Shown here in pieces: positions 1-20,865 of a stretch of DNA of 36,720 bases (its first letter is position 1; each line of letters starts with the position of its first letter). This stretch comes from a virus. The stretch lies in IMG/VR virus record IMGVR_UViG_3300020390_000010, positions 1 through 36,720 of that record. One strand, 5' to 3'. Both the position numbers and the translations under genes were made by a program. The notes beneath the pieces were generated by a model, which was not told where the DNA came from, did no database searches, and saw only the letters and a program-made list of their open reading frames with translations.

Positions 1-655
1 CCTGCATGGCCCAGGCGGATTTACCCATGCTCGGCCGGCCAGCGACGATCGTGAGTTCGCCGTCCTGCAATCCGGTCGTGAACTGGTCGTAATCGACAAA
101 CCCGGTGCGCTGGCCGGTGATCGACGAGCCCGATTCCAGCCGTTTTTCGAGCCGGTCGACACTCATGCGGCACGCCTCGGCGGCGTCGATAAAGCCGGCC
201 GATTCGCGCTTCTGGCTGATCTCGCCGATCGCTTTCTCGGCGGCGTCGAGTTTGTCCTCGGTCGACACCCCGTCCTGCTCGAATGCCGACGTGGTGATCT
301 CGTCACCGGCCCGGATCATCGACCGCAGCACGGCCCGGTCGCGGACGATCTGGGCGTAGCTGCGGATGTTGGCCGCACCCGGAATATCGACGGCGAGCTG
401 GCCGATGTACGGCGCCGTCACGCGATCCAGCTGATTCAGCGAGCGTAGTTTCTCGACGACCGTGATCTGGTCGAACGGCTCGTTCGCCTCGGCCAGGCTG
501 GCAATCGCACCGAACAGCAGGCGGTGATCCTCGCGGTAAAAATCCTCGGCCTGGATCTGATCGCCGATGTCGGCCCATGCGTTGGCGCTGTTGAGTAGGC
601 CGCCCAAAGTACTTTGTTCTGCTTCAATGCTATGCGGAGGCAACTTACCGAGCAT
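1..655 (-). CDS. dnaB: Replicative DNA helicase DnaB (C-terminus cut by window edge)
   Basis: Hexameric replicative helicase that unwinds the phage replication fork in the cytoplasm. About 218 residues are visible, read from the minus strand and open to position 1. The N-terminus reads MLGKLPPHSIEAEQS followed by TLGGLL, a standard DnaB opening. The N-terminal primase-interacting domain follows, and the Walker A motif GRPSMGKSAWA sits just before the window end. The start at 655 has a perfect Shine-Dalgarno GGAGG at 662-666. The gene overlaps the stop of the upstream HNH gene by 11 bases. The first 15 codons are richer in A/T than the rest and duplicate, with synonymous changes, codons at the start of the HNH gene (see findings). 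The family call is seen in the sequence and secure; the remaining ATPase domain is outside the window. Confidence 0.95.
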   Translation of the reverse strand, partial: MLGKLPPHSIEAEQSTLGGLLNSANAWADIGDQIQAEDFYREDHRLLFGAIASLAEANEPFDQITVVEKLRSLNQLDRVTAPYIGQLAVDIPGAANIRSYAQIVRDRAVLRSMIRAGDEITTSAFEQDGVSTEDKLDAAEKAIGEISQKRESAGFIDAAEACRMSVDRLEKRLESGSSITGQRTGFVDYDQFTTGLQDGELTIVAGRPSMGKSAWAMQ

Positions 656-1277
656 TGTCGACCTCCAAGTGCTTCCAGGTTTCGCCGATGCGTGCATAGC
701 GAATAGTTGATTTGCAGACTCCAAGTCGCCTTGCCCAATATGTATTTGGCTTATTCGATTTCCGTATCGCTAATACATCTTTCGACGTTAAAACGGCTGT
801 TGCCACGTTTTCGCCTTTAGCTGAACGGTTTCTGATAACCATGTCCCTAGAGTTATCAGCCGGCGTCCCCGCCAGAAGATGATTGGGGTTTACACATCTT
901 GGGTTGTCGCAGGTGTGCCTAATCACATATTTATCAGGTATCGCACCGACATTTTTTTCATAAAAATATCTGTGCATTGATATTTTTTTGCCTTTGACTT
1001 CCAAGTATCCATAGCCAGAACTCCGCATCGGGCCATTCCAAAGCCAACATCCATTTGGCGTCTTTTGTACATAGTCGCTGGCTCTCTGGCTCAGATGCCG
1101 AGATTTATAACCTCCTTTTTTAACAACGAAGGGATTACCGTATTTCCTGAACCGCTGGTAATGCTTGGTACAAAATCCAATTACTTTTGCGGGTCGGTCG
1201 CAATCTCTTGCTTTGCATTTGAAAGACTGCTCGGCCTCGATGCTGTGCGGGGGAAGCTTAGCTTCGTTGGGCGTCAT
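645..1277 (-). CDS. HNH homing-type endonuclease inserted at the dnaB start
   Basis: A 210-residue protein. Residues 1-18 are not endonuclease-like: KLPPHSIEAEQS at 7-18 is the DnaB N-terminus. Residues 21-39 form a probable zinc site (C21, C26, C36, H39). Residues 76-150 form an HNH_3-type nuclease core with CWLW, H102, H121, C123, C128 and NPNH at 130-133. The C-terminal region (165-204) is an HTH-like DNA-binding segment ending in TWKHL, the usual end of such proteins. The last six residues, EVDNAR, are encoded by the dnaB leader. It overlaps the upstream replication gene by 20 bases and dnaB by 11. Base composition is clearly more AT-rich than its neighbours, which points to transfer. It is a free-standing mobile endonuclease by inference, since no intron or intein boundary is evident. 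Confidence 0.9.
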   Translation of the reverse strand: MTPNEAKLPPHSIEAEQSFKCKARDCDRPAKVIGFCTKHYQRFRKYGNPFVVKKGGYKSRHLSQRASDYVQKTPNGCWLWNGPMRSSGYGYLEVKGKKISMHRYFYEKNVGAIPDKYVIRHTCDNPRCVNPNHLLAGTPADNSRDMVIRNRSAKGENVATAVLTSKDVLAIRKSNKPNTYWARRLGVCKSTIRYARIGETWKHLEVDNAR

Positions 1278-2016
1278 TGTCGTACCTCCCCTCGATGATC
1301 TTGTAGAAGTTCGTGACGTTCACAATCCACTCGAAATCAGCGCACCAGCCTCGGGGGTTGTTGCCCATCAAAAAATCGCTGCCCCGGATGTAGGCAAAGA
1401 ATTTCCGCCAGAAATCAAGCTGTTGGTGCTCAGGCTCCTCGCGCCATCGAGCCTTGAGCCACTTCCGGCGTTTTTCCGTCAAGCGGGCAACACGGGGCAG
1501 CTCGGGCAGTTGCTCGTGGTAGATCGTCACGATGTCCTGTGCCGGGCAGGCGTCCGCTGCGGGGGTTGCCGGCTCGGCCGGCGACTCTTCCTCGTTAGAG
1601 GAAGTATCTACATCTACATCCCCTCCACTCCTATCCGGGGGCGAGGGCTCGTCTATTCCTCCCGGAGTATTCGTCGAATTGTCTTCGATGGGTTGCGGAT
1701 ACTTCCGCGTAGGCTTGTCGATCCGTTGGTGATTCGACCACCCACTCACCTTTAAATACTCTTTCCCGTCAACGATATAGCGCACTATAAGATCATTCGA
1801 CGACAACTCGTCTAGCATTCCGCTAATACTATCGCCGTCGATATCCAGCTCGCCGGGGAACACCTTCATTTTCAGTCCACGCGGATTAGCGGGGATCACA
1901 CCCGCGTCGTCCGCGAAGTTCCAAATGCCGATAAACAGCAACCGAGCATCGCGCGAACATTCCACGATCTGGTCGCTGCTCCAGAACTCAGGTTTTATCG
2001 ACCGTATGCGTGCCAT
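1258..2016 (-). CDS. Phage replication initiation protein (gpO/DnaT-like)
   Basis: A 252-residue protein beginning MARIRSIKPEFWSSDQ. The N-terminal block (IKPEFW, ARLLFIGIWNFADDAGVIP, LKMKVFPGE) is typical of phage primosomal replication proteins with a winged-helix DNA-binding domain. A Pro/Ser/Glu-rich linker occupies roughly residues 100-155. A C-terminal helical part (about 165-250) resembles the region that in this family contacts the helicase or loader. The family role is to bind the phage origin and help load DnaB, fitting its place just upstream of dnaB. The start at 2016 overlaps the ParB-like stop by one base (TAATG), so translation is probably coupled. An in-frame start 15 bases upstream has no better ribosome site. 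The role is inferred from family and context. Confidence 0.8.
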   Translation of the reverse strand: MARIRSIKPEFWSSDQIVECSRDARLLFIGIWNFADDAGVIPANPRGLKMKVFPGELDIDGDSISGMLDELSSNDLIVRYIVDGKEYLKVSGWSNHQRIDKPTRKYPQPIEDNSTNTPGGIDEPSPPDRSGGDVDVDTSSNEEESPAEPATPAADACPAQDIVTIYHEQLPELPRVARLTEKRRKWLKARWREEPEHQQLDFWRKFFAYIRGSDFLMGNNPRGWCADFEWIVNVTNFYKIIEGRYDNDAQRS

Positions 2017-2855
2017 TACGCGGCCTCCCAATCCCGCAGCGTCGTTACACGGATACTGCCGCCGCAGTCATCGAGCAGACGTATGGCGCGCTCCCACTGC
2101 TGCTGTGTGAGGTTTTCAAACAGCAGGTTGACGAACTCGGCGCGGGCCTGTTCTCGGTTTTCCTTCGCGACGCGTTCCCGCTCTTTCTGTTCGTCCCGCA
2201 GATCACGTCGACGTTGTTCATCGTTCAACGCTTCGACTTTTTCGGTCGCCGATTCGATCTGCTCCTGATCGCCTGCGAGCTTTGAAAGCTGGTCGAGAAA
2301 AACGCCCGTATCGGCCTTGGTCCCGCGAATCAGATCACGGGCCTGTTGGCAGACAGTGCGGGCGCGTTTGGTGGCGCGGTTGGTGTTGCGCTTGGACTGG
2401 CCGGTGGCCTGTTCGGTGGATTCGGCGAACTCCTGCGGCCTGCCTCGGCTTCGATCAGGCTCGTCAGGATTAGTGGGACAAGTTGTCCCACTATTCTCGT
2501 TAGCCTGAATCGCCTCCCAAACCTCTTTGCGCCGCTGCATGTGCTCGGCGTACTCAGTGGCGGTCAGCTCCGAACGCATAAGGTTTTCGTCTATCTCGGC
2601 AAGCTGCGCATGGAGTTCATCGCCCTCCATGATGTAAGCGTCGATGGTTTCCCATCCGAGATTTTTCGCCGCTTCCAAACGATGACCGCCTGCCACTAAC
2701 TTGACAGTCTCATCGTCAGGCGAAAACACAATGATCGGACTCAACAGGCCGAGCGTATCCATGCTCTGCGACAAGCTCTCAATCTTTTTCTGGTCAATGT
2801 CTCTAAGCCGCGCATCAACATCAATGCCGGCGACAATCACTTTCTCGTAGAACAT
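2016..2855 (-). CDS. ParB N-terminal-domain protein
   Basis: A 279-residue protein. Residues 1-95 form a ParB/sulfiredoxin-fold domain: the segment around LRDIDQKKIESLSQSMDTLG, then VAGGHRLEAAKNLGW, which is the ParB catalytic or nucleotide-binding box. Residues about 95-125 (LAEIDENL) follow the usual ParB layout. The middle (about 130-185) is polar and low-complexity. The C-terminal third is a long charged Glu/Arg helix, likely coiled coil. It is not accompanied by ParA, so plasmid-style partitioning is not supported. Phage ParB-like proteins can act as DNA-binding regulators or nucleases, and its role here is unknown. It lies directly downstream of another ParB-like protein with a one-base TAATG overlap. 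Confidence 0.8.
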   Translation of the reverse strand: MFYEKVIVAGIDVDARLRDIDQKKIESLSQSMDTLGLLSPIIVFSPDDETVKLVAGGHRLEAAKNLGWETIDAYIMEGDELHAQLAEIDENLMRSELTATEYAEHMQRRKEVWEAIQANENSGTTCPTNPDEPDRSRGRPQEFAESTEQATGQSKRNTNRATKRARTVCQQARDLIRGTKADTGVFLDQLSKLAGDQEQIESATEKVEALNDEQRRRDLRDEQKERERVAKENREQARAEFVNLLFENLTQQQWERAIRLLDDCGGSIRVTTLRDWEAA

Positions 2856-7152: not shown

Positions 7153-7607
7153 GCGATCTTGCCGATATCGAAGCCCTTGCGAGCGCGCACGGTCTTGATG
7201 TGAAAAATAACAGCAACGGTCACATTCAGATTAGCGGCCGTGGCGTGCTCGTCAATTATTACCCGTTTAGCAAAAAGCGAACAGTGTGGTGCAAAGACGG
7301 ACGCCGAGCAACTGACTGCACAGCATGGGATGCCGTGCGCATGTGCCTGACAGGCGACAACAAGCAACTTAGACCGACGAAGAAGCCGCCGAAAACCCGG
7401 CCTGAAATAGATCTGCAGCCGGCTGTTACGAATCCGGCCGGGGTGCAGCATTTCTACAGCGGCGAAGTGCCGCCGTGGGACGAATCGCTCGAATGGTTGA
7501 GCGCGAACACGTATAGCGACAGCGTGAGGTTGTCGGCATACCGGCTTGAAATGGATGCGCTCGAGCTGCGTGTTGAAGCAAATGAGCTAGACGAGGTGGC
7601 GTCATGA
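7149..7607 (+). CDS. Early phage protein, 152 residues, unknown function
   Basis: Begins at a GTG with GGAGG at 7139-7143. Residues 1-70 include ADIEALASAHGLDV and VLVNYYPFSKKRTVWCKDGR, a pattern I associate with uncharacterised phage proteins. A proline/lysine-rich linker follows, then an acidic C-terminal helix (LEMDALELRVEANELDEVAS). It overlaps both neighbours by four bases (GTGA and ATGA). No catalytic motif is visible. Confidence 0.65.
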   Translation: MSDLADIEALASAHGLDVKNNSNGHIQISGRGVLVNYYPFSKKRTVWCKDGRRATDCTAWDAVRMCLTGDNKQLRPTKKPPKTRPEIDLQPAVTNPAGVQHFYSGEVPPWDESLEWLSANTYSDSVRLSAYRLEMDALELRVEANELDEVAS

Positions 7608-7766
7608 ACACCCCAATCATCACAGGCGAGGCGGCTAACGACTGGTGGCGGGGCGATTCTGTCCTGCCCTGTCGAGTACACCGACCCGCAGTTCTATCAA
7701 ATGGCGAAACGGTTTGTGCAAAAGCACGAGGCCCTTCGCGGGCAACAGAGAGAGGTGGAGGCGTGA
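7604..7766 (+). pseudogene. Small gene split by a +1 frame change (about 53 residues if joined)
   Basis: The ATG at 7604 overlaps the previous stop, giving MNTPIITGEAANDWWRGDSV. Coding-like sequence then continues in the +1 frame as EYTDPQFYQMAKRFVQKHEA and ends at TGA 7764-7766, overlapping the GTG start of the TnpB-like gene. The switch must occur near CTG CCC TGT at about 7662-7670, where CCC followed by T is a known type of +1 slip site. Without slipping, the first frame runs on into the TnpB-like frame and would give an N-terminal extension of 53 residues. The cause may be mutation, sequencing error or programmed slip. Confidence 0.5.
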
Positions 7767-8884
7767 GCGAGTCCAAGAGACTGAAGAAAACTCTTCAGGT
7801 TCGAGTTAAAGATAAACACGCCAAACATCTGGGAAGAATGGCGCGCTCAGTTAATTTCGTCTGGAATTATATAAACGAACTCAGTGAACGATCCATTCGA
7901 GAGCGCGGGCTTTTCCTCTCTGGCTATGACATTTGTAAATTCACTCAAGGGGCTAACAAAGAATTAGGACTAAACAGTCATACTGTTCAGCGTATCGGTA
8001 AGGAATACGCTACTCGACGTAAACAGTTTCGAAAAAATAAATTGGCGTGGCGTAAATCTTTTGGTTCCCGTCGTAGCTTGGGCTGGATTCCAATTAATAC
8101 TGGCGCTTCTAGCTGGAAGTTCGGACAGGTCTATCACAATGGCAGTTATTTCAAGGTCTGGGACAGCTATGGGCTAAGCCAGTATCGCTTTCTCTCTGCG
8201 TCGTTTAATGAAGACGCCCGAGGGCGCTGGTATTTCAATGTCGCGGTGGATGTTGAGCCGTCTTCAGACCGGGCTAATAAAGCCGTCGCTGGTATCGATC
8301 TTGGTCTGACTGACGTAGCAACCTGTAGCGACGGTTCTAAAATGATTAACCATCGATTCTATAAGGGCATGGAAAACATGCTTGCCAATGCTCAGCGGGC
8401 TCGCAAGAAAAGCCGCGTAAGAGCGATACACGCCAAGATAAGAAACCGCCGAAAGGACGCAGCGCATAAGTTTTCGCGCCGTGTTGTTGATAACTACGGC
8501 GCGGTCTACGTGGGCGACGTTAGTTCGCTCAAACTCGCCAAAACCCGCATGGCCAAGTCGGTGTTTGATGCCGGCTGGGGTCAATTAAAGACGATGCTGG
8601 AATATAAATGCGATCACGCAGGCATTGTTTTTAAAGAGGTTGACGAGCGATACACCACCCAAGCCTGTTCGAGTTGTGGCTGTCTGCCCCTCTCGCGGCC
8701 GAAAGGTATCGCAGGCCTTGGAATAAGGCTATGGACTTGCAGTGAGTGCGGTGTCACTCACGACCGCGATATTAACGCGGCCAAGAACATAGCTGCGGTC
8801 GGGCATGGCCGTCCTGTGGAGGGAATTCCGACATTTAACGCGGAAAGATGTCAATGGTGGCCTGATGGGGATAACGCGGCATGA
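7763..8884 (+). CDS. tnpB: TnpB-like RNA-guided nuclease-family protein with altered RuvC site
   Basis: A 373-residue protein, typical TnpB length, starting at GTG with GGAG upstream. The N-terminal REC/WED-type region reaches about residue 170. RuvC-I is GIDLG (D179). The RuvC-II position reads AVYVGDVSSLKLAKT, with Gly251 where TnpB normally has Glu. A four-Cys zinc ribbon follows (C302, C305, C326, C329). RuvC-III is HDRDINAAKNI (D336). A Glu pair at E292 and E295 just before the zinc ribbon might substitute for the missing carboxylate. No TnpA or transposon end is evident. GTGA and ATGA overlaps tie both ends into the operon, suggesting domestication. It could be a nuclease-dead repressor, a rearranged active nuclease, or a decayed transposon protein. 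Confidence 0.93.
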   Translation: MSESKRLKKTLQVRVKDKHAKHLGRMARSVNFVWNYINELSERSIRERGLFLSGYDICKFTQGANKELGLNSHTVQRIGKEYATRRKQFRKNKLAWRKSFGSRRSLGWIPINTGASSWKFGQVYHNGSYFKVWDSYGLSQYRFLSASFNEDARGRWYFNVAVDVEPSSDRANKAVAGIDLGLTDVATCSDGSKMINHRFYKGMENMLANAQRARKKSRVRAIHAKIRNRRKDAAHKFSRRVVDNYGAVYVGDVSSLKLAKTRMAKSVFDAGWGQLKTMLEYKCDHAGIVFKEVDERYTTQACSSCGCLPLSRPKGIAGLGIRLWTCSECGVTHDRDINAAKNIAAVGHGRPVEGIPTFNAERCQWWPDGDNAA

Positions 8885-20054: not shown

Positions 20055-20768
20055 TTAAGCGGAGTTCTTTCTAAATTTTTTCTGTGTAGGGGCAAAAAGC
20101 GCACTGCCTCGCTTACCCGCTCGATATCTAGCCTTTAACGTGACATGCTTTATACCAAGACACTGACTCCACTGAAAAAGATTTTTGCATTCGCCTAGAT
20201 ATTTGACGCGCACCTCTCGGTCAGTGCGGCCAAGTGGCCGCACCAACTTATCTCCGCGATGGCCTTGCTCGTAATAACGCTTTTTAATGACCGAATACGG
20301 AATACCGTAACGTCTGCCAAGCTTATGAAGTCCAATCCTTTTGCCGTGAAAGATAACGAATCGCTCTGCGTGCTTGTTTGGTACGAGCAAATCTTCACCG
20401 CGGAGCCCGTATCGATAGCGCTGTTTAACGATCGCATAGGAAATGCCACGCAACTCAGCCCACTCGACCATCGGCCGGGCATCCCCACCAATATCGATCA
20501 TGACGTTGTTGGATTTATTTCGAGATTGCTCTTTTTTAGTAGCCCACCGACAATTTTTTGGATTGTATCCTTCATTATTGTCGATACGGTCTATCGACAT
20601 ACCTTCAGGACGAGGGCCCATGTCAAATAAAAAATTATCGTATTCGAGCCAACGCTCACATACTTTTATCCCTCGACCACCGTAGTCATTATAACTTCCG
20701 CATCTCGGGTTATTGCACCTATAAATCATGGACTTCCAAGATTTATATGCCCCAGTGCTACTTTTCAT
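20055..20768 (-). CDS. HNH endonuclease with three DNA-binding repeats
   Basis: A 237-residue protein. The nuclease core (residues 1-90) contains RCNNPRCGSYNDYGGRGI, CERW, MSIDRIDNNEGYNPKNCRWA, a pattern of phage HNH proteins. Then three copies of a repeat GIxxxxIKxRYxxGxRGxxL occur at about 98-130, 145-178 and 197-227, probably helical DNA-reading modules. The ATG at 20768 has GAGAGAGG upstream, preferred over a TTG three codons earlier. Strikingly AT-rich against its neighbours, so a recent mobile insertion into the tail operon between the DUF1833 and NlpC genes. Confidence 0.88.
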   Translation of the reverse strand: MKSSTGAYKSWKSMIYRCNNPRCGSYNDYGGRGIKVCERWLEYDNFLFDMGPRPEGMSIDRIDNNEGYNPKNCRWATKKEQSRNKSNNVMIDIGGDARPMVEWAELRGISYAIVKQRYRYGLRGEDLLVPNKHAERFVIFHGKRIGLHKLGRRYGIPYSVIKKRYYEQGHRGDKLVRPLGRTDREVRVKYLGECKNLFQWSQCLGIKHVTLKARYRAGKRGSALFAPTQKKFRKNSA

Positions 20769-20865
20769 TGGATGCAACCTCTCTCATTGCCTCTCGAATG
20801 GTAAGCGCGCGGCAAATGTATCGAGAGTCGCACATCTTTCGGCCGCTAAACCTAGCCGCGCGCAT
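20758..20865 (-). CDS. Possible 35-residue ORF upstream of the HNH gene
   Basis: Starts MRAARFSGRKMCDSRYICRA and stops just inside the HNH gene. It may be the displaced 5' end of a tail gene cut by the HNH insertion, or simply leader sequence. It contains the HNH gene ribosome site. No family is seen. Confidence 0.25.
   Translation of the reverse strand: MRAARFSGRKMCDSRYICRALTIREAMREVASNEK

Follow-up and report, generated by a model that had tools for sequence, protein, structure and literature searches.

An HNH nuclease gene between two dnaB starts in a phage genome, and similar layouts at phage helicase genes

The dnaB locus

The stretch of DNA analysed here, referred to as the window, is the whole 36,720-base IMG/VR virus record IMGVR_UViG_3300020390_000010, and its feature of interest is an HNH nuclease gene situated at the start of the helicase gene dnaB. 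On the minus strand, the genes of the locus follow each other in the order ParB-like, O-like replication initiation, HNH_3 nuclease and dnaB. An earlier note on this DNA had described the nuclease gene as flanked by two copies of the dnaB start, and both the sequence and the coordinates agree with this. The features are as follows.

1258..2019, minus strand: O-like replication-initiation gene (rep), identified by matches to PHROG replication initiation proteins
1284..1289, minus strand: ribosome-binding site (RBS) GGAGGT of what is most likely the original dnaB start, now ahead of the HNH gene (sequence)
1258-1260, minus strand: stop codon TAA of rep, overlapping the dnaB/HNH start (read from sequence)
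1224..1277, minus strand: 5' copy or stub, comprising what are most likely codons 1-18 of the original dnaB (MTPNEAKLPPHSIEAEQS), joined in frame to the HNH gene (codon usage, Met-to-PP spacing)
645..1277, minus strand: HNH_3 nuclease open reading frame (ORF), 210 amino acids (Pfam HNH_3, PHROG HNH families)
648-1223, minus strand: nuclease part after the stub, with zinc finger C-x4-C..C-x2-H, HNH and C-terminal helices
661..666, minus strand: second RBS GGAGGT, within the 3' end of the HNH gene and ahead of the restored dnaB (sequence)
645-647, minus strand: stop codon TAA of the HNH gene, inside the restored dnaB start, whose ATG occupies 653-655
605..655, minus strand: 3' copy, codons 1-17 of the putative replacement start of dnaB, HNH-like in codon usage (change point)
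2..604, minus strand: body of dnaB with native codon usage, truncated by the end of the record (Pfam, codon usage)

Both protein assignments are supported by Pfam: the nuclease matched HNH_3 above the curated cut-off (E 2.5e-10), in addition to PHROG HNH families, and dnaB matched DnaB N (4.1e-28) and DnaB_C (7.2e-10). The HNH protein opens with MTPNEAKLPPHSIEAEQS and then enters the zinc finger (FKCKARDC), and DnaB opens with MLGKLPPHSIEAEQSTLGGLL, so that a 12-residue block, KLPPHSIEAEQS, is encoded twice. Only three of its 12 codons are identical between the copies; the other nine differ, all of them synonymously, leaving 25 of 36 nucleotides identical. The 5' copy reads GGAGGTACGACAATG, followed by ACG CCC AAC GAA GCT and the 12 codons (ATG at 1277), and the 3' copy reads GGAGGTCGACAATG, followed by CTC GGT and codons for the same 12 residues (ATG at 655). 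Ahead of either start lie GGAGGT, one or no base, and CGACAATG, and the stop codon of the preceding gene falls just inside the new frame. As had been noted, the C-terminus of the HNH protein, EVDNAR, is encoded by the duplicated dnaB leader. Calling the two the same translation start is accurate for the leader and for the 12-residue block but not for the residues ahead of the block, MTPNEA- in the 5' copy and MLG- in the 3' copy.

Which start is the original

Codon usage was compared as the log10 ratio of phage genes over HNH genes. The 12 codons of the 5' copy scored +1.29, the block of the 3' copy plus two codons scored -3.24 (HNH-like), and the 18 dnaB codons that follow scored +3.89 (phage-like). 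With reference genes that exclude dnaB itself, the change point was placed after dnaB codon 17, with support of 4.68 log10 units (4.31 for codon 18 and 4.24 for codon 16), a value reached by one of 20,000 codon shuffles. The shift of the 3' copy towards A/T and towards the HNH gene, first remarked on in the earlier note, is therefore real, and the boundary supports the proposed entry at dnaB codon 18. Codon choice by itself says less about whether the duplication exceeds chance: agreement at three or fewer of 12 codons occurred in 9% of trials with two random phage-like draws and in 40% with one phage-like and one HNH-like draw.

A second line of evidence comes from 12 rep-dnaB contigs without an HNH match, which are distant relatives with dnaB about 38-45% identical. 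From the starting Met to the PP of the block they have 7 residues (9/12) or 6 (3/12); in the window this spacing is 7 residues in the 5' copy and 4 in the 3' copy. HNH-free relatives already carrying the 3' version, which would speak against the proposed insertion, were not encountered among these contigs, all of which start like the 5' copy. Its phage-like codon usage and this spacing mark the 5' copy as the most likely native start of dnaB. Since codon usage turns phage-like after codon 17, the inserted unit most likely comprises the HNH gene and a short replacement start of about 17 codons, having entered at dnaB codon 18.

It is conceivable, though we consider it rather unlikely, that the start was duplicated locally when the HNH gene entered, and that selection against cleavage, or against the two copies recombining, then altered the spelling of the second copy where it stood, with no foreign dnaB start involved. 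The leaders are indeed nearly identical (GGAGGT-CGACAATG) though nine of 12 codons differ, and the replaced tract is short, about 17 codons. Moreover, among 53 other dnaB starts, 22 pairs were equal at the 12 residues, and all of these, which may be close kin, were more than 25/36 nucleotides identical (mean 33); relative to them, the window pair is unusually diverged at synonymous sites. However, the codon usage of the 3' copy matches the HNH gene, as if both had arrived together, and the residues ahead of the block differ (MTPNEA and MLG). At the helicase loci described below, replacement starts differ in protein too, and similar blocks are common to different phages, which points to donors.

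The nuclease and its start codon

Between the dnaB ATG and the zinc finger of the HNH protein, no in-frame ATG, GTG or TTG was found. Related HNH genes, 17 of which were chosen because the match extends to the finger, have a start codon 1-6 residues ahead of the first finger cysteine in 15 cases; in the remaining two, the search pattern struck the wrong cysteine. As far as can be read from the sequence, the window HNH would use the dnaB start codon, there being no other usual one available, which supports the idea that it captured the ribosome site of dnaB. Homologous HNH proteins lacking the DnaB peptide, which the earlier note had listed as a possible objection, do exist, but they are to be expected, because a nuclease's own start is the part that would be replaced in such a capture. 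In the case of phiGT1, the alignment of the HNH protein extends into the DnaB peptide; it was rejected as accidental, since phiGT1 starts MANHLIC. On reading, no flanking copy was seen at the HNH genes of phiGT1, GA2A, Jinkies, Nordenberg and ctkAd229.

Across 16 aligned proteins, the window HNH among them, 24 columns are invariant, including the HNH histidines and the finger ligands. The structural model has a mean predicted local distance difference test (pLDDT) score of 83.9 and a predicted template modelling (pTM) score of 0.49, with the first two ten-residue blocks at 48 and 56. The low values over the stub are weak evidence of disorder, because the stub has no aligned relatives. The finger-like Cys/His residues, invariant in the 16 rows, and the C-terminal helices of the model are putative DNA-binding modules; a Pfam search gave no match to a DNA-binding family in these regions, and no solved structure matched the HNH protein at E up to 0.01. 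Nucleases of the HNH homing kind often decay, and the window gene could accordingly be a dead remnant, the whole layout being a frozen historical scar. This seems improbable, given the intact ORF, the 24 invariant columns over 16 proteins and the confident model across the nuclease domain.

Splicing elements offer no explanation of the interruption. An intein was rejected because the insert has stop codons in the frame of the target, and a group I or group II intron with an endonuclease was rejected because Rfam revealed no splicing element around the nuclease gene. At positions 1-2400 of the window, Rfam gave no intron-like RNA; with E values of up to 1 allowed, it matched a single family, a microRNA whose score fell well short of the gathering threshold. 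Six helicase loci gave no Rfam match at gathering score.

Relatives of the window and survey of HNH loci

GTDB genomes yielded 42 dnaB loci, the best being Salinisphaera at 50%, and none of the fetched stretches contained a match to the rep, HNH, ParB or orf299 of the window; dnaB starts were read in 14 of the 42 (L033-L046). An IMG/VR pattern scan for EAEQ followed by a zinc finger, which covered the GAG-GC spelling and one finger spacing, returned one unrelated locus. When the 49-residue chimeric N-terminus was used in tblastn, 187 records matched, with no convincing second dnaB-HNH fusion among the 25 listed, of which one was opened. A stretch of Gordonia phage Affeca (L464, 1413-1529) within a terminase gene weakly resembles the chimeric N-terminus, mostly its zinc finger (41% identity, E 0.04).

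We then surveyed 157 distinct HNH loci (161 supplied, four of them duplicates) for a peptide preceding the nuclease that reappears after it. Excluded before this count were 3/80, 17/80 and 13/22 loci of three sets, which were short, repeated contigs or weak. The null distribution of 628 mismatched pairs had a mean of 32, a 99th percentile of 46 and a maximum of 52; the window scored 65, above this maximum. Flanking copies were accepted in nine of the 157 loci, namely the window, six helicase loci (L102, 68; L134, 66; L129, 60; L124, 58; L140 and L382, 41 each), L147 (64) and L104 (49). The scores of L104, L140 and L382 lie within the null range, and these loci were accepted on motif or position, L140 and L382 on motif only. 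Four high scores (L085, 90; L154, 73; L421, 65; L444, 56) were rejected as low-complexity translations or frames other than those of the genes, and a further group scoring 46-51, L120, L117 and L406 among them, was dismissed on visual inspection alone.

L147 (2152-3123) is a possible mirror case, in which the gene end CHIWMDRTVDGIRFKK precedes the HNH gene and CHIYLDTTGEGVRFKK follows it, as in the fungal elements with a replaced carboxy-terminus discussed below. L104 (2101-3160), with a score within the null range, is a possible second one, with IQRVEVVDAAPAL before the HNH gene and IQKVEVVDAVPGL after it.

Occupied and empty helicase loci in IMG/VR

The helicase start of one surveyed contig was used to fetch 80 IMG/VR loci. 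A stub together with a second start was present in 16 of them, and an HNH gene of one of two types was recognised in 15 of these 16. At L201, there was only a weak HNH match, far upstream. At L168 (1793-2506), about 700 bases separate the helicase stub from the replacement start, and three queries found no HNH; another kind of insert may intervene. When the stub motif was scanned for, 111 of at least 120 loci continued as helicase, representing the empty target, and six carried an HNH gene; two others ended with the fetched stretch and one had a variant motif.

The stubs closely resemble empty alleles and the replacement starts do not. Over 41 bases, the stubs of 13 invaded loci match a nuclease-free allele at 37-41 positions, and with the 40 upstream bases included they match the best empty allele at 52-78 of 81, the best pair being L204 with L271. 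Ten replacement starts reached 28-32 of 41, and none exceeded 32 against any target-type allele. For the comparison of whole genes, 19 invaded and 19 nuclease-free helicases were hand-picked from the 80 loci, and the first 25 of 95 full-length target-type helicases were used. Up to alignment column 350, the 19 invaded helicases are 82-100% like the nuclease-free replacement type and 45-78% like the target type. Past this column, five of the 19 (L164, L165, L172, L181 and L191) clearly turn target-type.

Three loci without a recognised HNH gene in the fetched stretch (L205-L207) begin like a stub and change over to the replacement type within bases that the two types share, and the whole record of L205 contained no HNH_3. 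These hybrid starts look like loss products of recombination between stub and replacement.

Occupied and empty alleles in cultured phages

Vibrio phage 1.191.O was identified by tblastn against phage genomes, and nine of 25 related records were examined in addition. Both 1.191.O and its relative 1.086.O have Vibrio splendidus as their recorded host. In 1.086.O, 1.087.A and PS15B.3, an uninterrupted helicase start lies 60 nt behind the upstream gene, and in 1.100.O, PS15B.2, 1.223.O and 1.201.B the same kind of native start is preceded by another small gene. Phage 1.191.O is identical to the empty allele of 1.086.O over the 50 nt leading to the insertion (16 nt before the ATG and 34 nt from the ATG). 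After this stub follow an HNH_3 gene and then a helicase starting MKLTARPYQEDAIEAVIAHVKKRLSPC rather than MFKLRYYQQDAVDAVIAHVKKRLSPC. Compared with 1.086.O, this helicase shows 52-70% nucleotide identity over about 390 codons and 87-99% thereafter.

Phage 1.225.O has a distinct HNH_3 gene, part of which resembles AP2 at a score below cut-off, behind a stub of which 26 nt agree with the empty allele. Its replacement extends over about 90 codons at 61-71%, followed by 86-98% save for two bins (66-70%), in which other relatives also differ from 1.086.O. Phage 1.246.O has a NUMOD3 gene (weak HNH match below cut-off) and a replacement start near-identical to that of 1.225.O. The presence of different nuclease-type genes before nearly the same replacement helicase start in 1.225.O (L467) and 1.246.O (L468) suggests that nucleases may turn over while the rescue persists.

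Outside the Vibrio phages, the cyanophage records Ssp-JY40 and Yong-M3-232, identical across 3,001 bases, encode a PF01844 HNH protein that opens with an in-frame helicase stub, MTLTLRPYQERCLADLWHWF, and the helicase behind it begins VTLVLRDYQERAISDLWAWF; the tblastn search of phage genomes gave no empty relative of these two. Yong-M3-232 is a Synechococcus phage of strain PCC 7002. Two other phages were not counted: RHph_TM3_3_14B, where the HNH gene overlaps the helicase start with no visible stub, and Eidolon, where it lies behind the helicase.

A proposed model of homing with rescue

Insertion inside the gene, a stub, a divergent replacement and a return to recipient-like sequence can be read from these loci as such. 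We infer from them the cutting, the resistance, the coupling of translation and the mobility of the window element. With good confidence, we interpret the arrangement as the result of homing that leaves a stub and brings along a divergent, presumably uncut rescue start. The cassette would consist of the HNH gene and, directly behind it, the divergent start of the target gene. The nuclease would make a cut or nick around codon 17-18 of a dnaB that has no insert yet, and repair would copy the cassette from the invaded phage. On the left, the junction would lie at the cut, leaving the leader and first 18 codons of the recipient as the stub, which would give the HNH gene its ribosome site and start codon. 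On the right, it would lie deeper in the gene, at a point where the sequences of donor and recipient converge again. The stubs of donor and recipient would be alike on the left side, and on the right the donor start would be too different to pair, causing repair to end further in. The recipient would thereby gain a re-spelled start and keep its own gene body, as the codon-usage switch in dnaB and the mosaic helicase genes elsewhere indicate.

With the HNH stop codon overlapping the new dnaB start, translation of the two genes is probably coupled. The altered spelling should shield the new start from the nuclease and limit its recombination with the stub. As an outcome, the reading frame of the target would be kept and the original site removed. 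The earlier proposal that dnaB was restored by a start brought with the nuclease gains support from the codon-usage boundary and from the occurrence of the same layout, with empty alleles, elsewhere.

The left junction is sharp and the right one varies in position: it lies about 17 codons into the gene in the window, about 350 codons in at five IMG/VR contigs, and about 90 and about 390 codons in for Vibrio phages 1.225.O and 1.191.O, respectively. Such a pattern agrees with a cut close to the insertion point having been repaired from an invaded donor. Because the helicase replacement starts also carry amino-acid changes, transfer from a diverged donor would explain most of the divergence; recoding by selection in the window is possible.

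Several observations weigh against this interpretation. An IMG/VR exact-peptide search and the GTDB genomes yielded no close relative of the window phage that lacks the HNH gene. The stub is not universal, because an HNH gene lies just ahead of the helicase with no stub recognised by pattern at nine of the 80 helicase loci (L195 being truncated by the contig end) and because the nuclease-type gene of 1.246.O also has none. In 1.225.O, ACG replaces the ATG of the stub, and an extra inserted gene precedes it. The six occupied loci of the stub-motif scan are contigs already within the 16 of the 80. Past column 350, three of the 19 invaded helicases (L192, L196 and L203) stay replacement-type and 11 are not decisive. 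Finally, nuclease-free alleles of replacement type (for example L158) could be donors rather than losses.

The helicase loci with HNH but no recognised stub would also suit ordinary intronless homing, with an HNH gene between rep and dnaB beside a resistant dnaB and the DnaB-like N-terminus as an unimportant secondary fusion. The HNH family is of the usual free-standing phage kind, and a divergent target beside the nuclease gene would be expected there too. Nevertheless, this account is hardly likely: the insertion lies inside the target gene, whose start is left as a stub, the stub of 1.191.O ends exactly where the empty allele is interrupted, and ahead of the finger, the dnaB ATG is the only usual start codon open to the window HNH. 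That an IMG/VR record such as the window has its two dnaB starts from a metagenome assembly chimera of two phages is a very remote prospect, as this needs two independent joins in about 700 bases, both preserving frame and start signals, and the layout is also found in the records of named phages that have hosts.

The homing-with-rescue interpretation could extend further. We judge the chances slightly better than even that these loci represent a recurrent class, in which nucleases of several families enter replication genes within about 20 codons of the start, take over that start, carry a re-spelled antidote that they would be unable to cut, leave immune hybrids when lost and so drive a patchwork evolution of phage replication genes.

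Relation to known systems

SegF and SegG of phage T4 are reportedly encoded beside their target gene and spread by intronless homing. As there, the nuclease gene of the window lies beside a version of the target that differs from that of the recipient, with co-conversion of flanking sequence; unlike there, the insertion is at codon 18 of the target itself, and within the helicase start in 1.191.O and 1.225.O. The rescue in the engineered HomeR drive is said to be a recoded copy. HomeR, as far as the available part of its description goes, similarly combines a nuclease aimed at an essential gene with a rescue, although it is engineered, in Drosophila, and based on CRISPR (PMC7968924); the elements described here are natural, and belong to phages and HNH nucleases. 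The window element looks like a natural home-and-rescue (cut-and-rescue) gene drive, and would be a natural counterpart to engineered drives with rescue. Homing genes inside critical genes are known from MobE in nrdA of Aeromonas phage Aeh1 and MobA in gene 60 of T4; according to the accessible part of the source, these targets stay split into separate coding regions (PMC2988022), in contrast to the present case, where the replacement start would restore the target whole.

The nearest precedent is, by analogy, provided by fungal mitochondrial elements, of which the window layout appears to be a mirror image. Mobile ORFs with a foreign carboxy-terminus have been described in atp6 of Allomyces and in atp6, atp9, cox2 and nad3 of Glomus (PMC3630166, here and below as far as the excerpts available go). 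In both systems, an endonuclease ORF within a coding gene is accompanied by a divergent replacement piece and a native remnant, and the two pieces are far closer in protein than in DNA (Glomus atp6: 63.5% at the nucleotide and 91% at the amino-acid level; PMC3630166). They differ in that the carboxy-terminal end is replaced in the fungal ORFs, while here it is the 5' or amino-terminal end, with the leftover stub serving as the nuclease's translation start. The nucleases differ as well, being of HNH types in these phages and LAGLIDADG, with GIY-YIG in atp9, in Glomus (PMC3630166). A search of the open-access literature, judged by titles and the beginnings of abstracts and with subscription papers mostly outside its scope, gave no report of a gene start captured and replaced with a phage nuclease, and the layout is not described in the portions of PMC10448857 and PMC12724721 that were available.

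If the interpretation is right, the locus shows how a nuclease lacking an intron or intein can occupy a replication gene without destroying its function. Defined target sites, immune alleles and loss products would be expected, and the occupied and empty alleles in named phages (Vibrio 1.191.O, 1.225.O and 1.086.O) make the cycle of invasion, rescue and loss directly testable. Some caution is also due in annotation, since such events can give rise to phage replication genes with a divergent 5' end and to odd fusion proteins annotated as HNH.

A second HNH gene and a transposase-like gene in the window

The window contains a second HNH gene (20055-20777, minus strand), which is AT-rich (GC 46%), belongs to a different family (phrog_3377) and lies amid tail genes; the flanking-peptide survey found no flanking duplicate for it (score 32). 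A transposase-like gene (phrog_506) occupies 7604-8884 on the plus strand, directly before the Erf and exonuclease genes.

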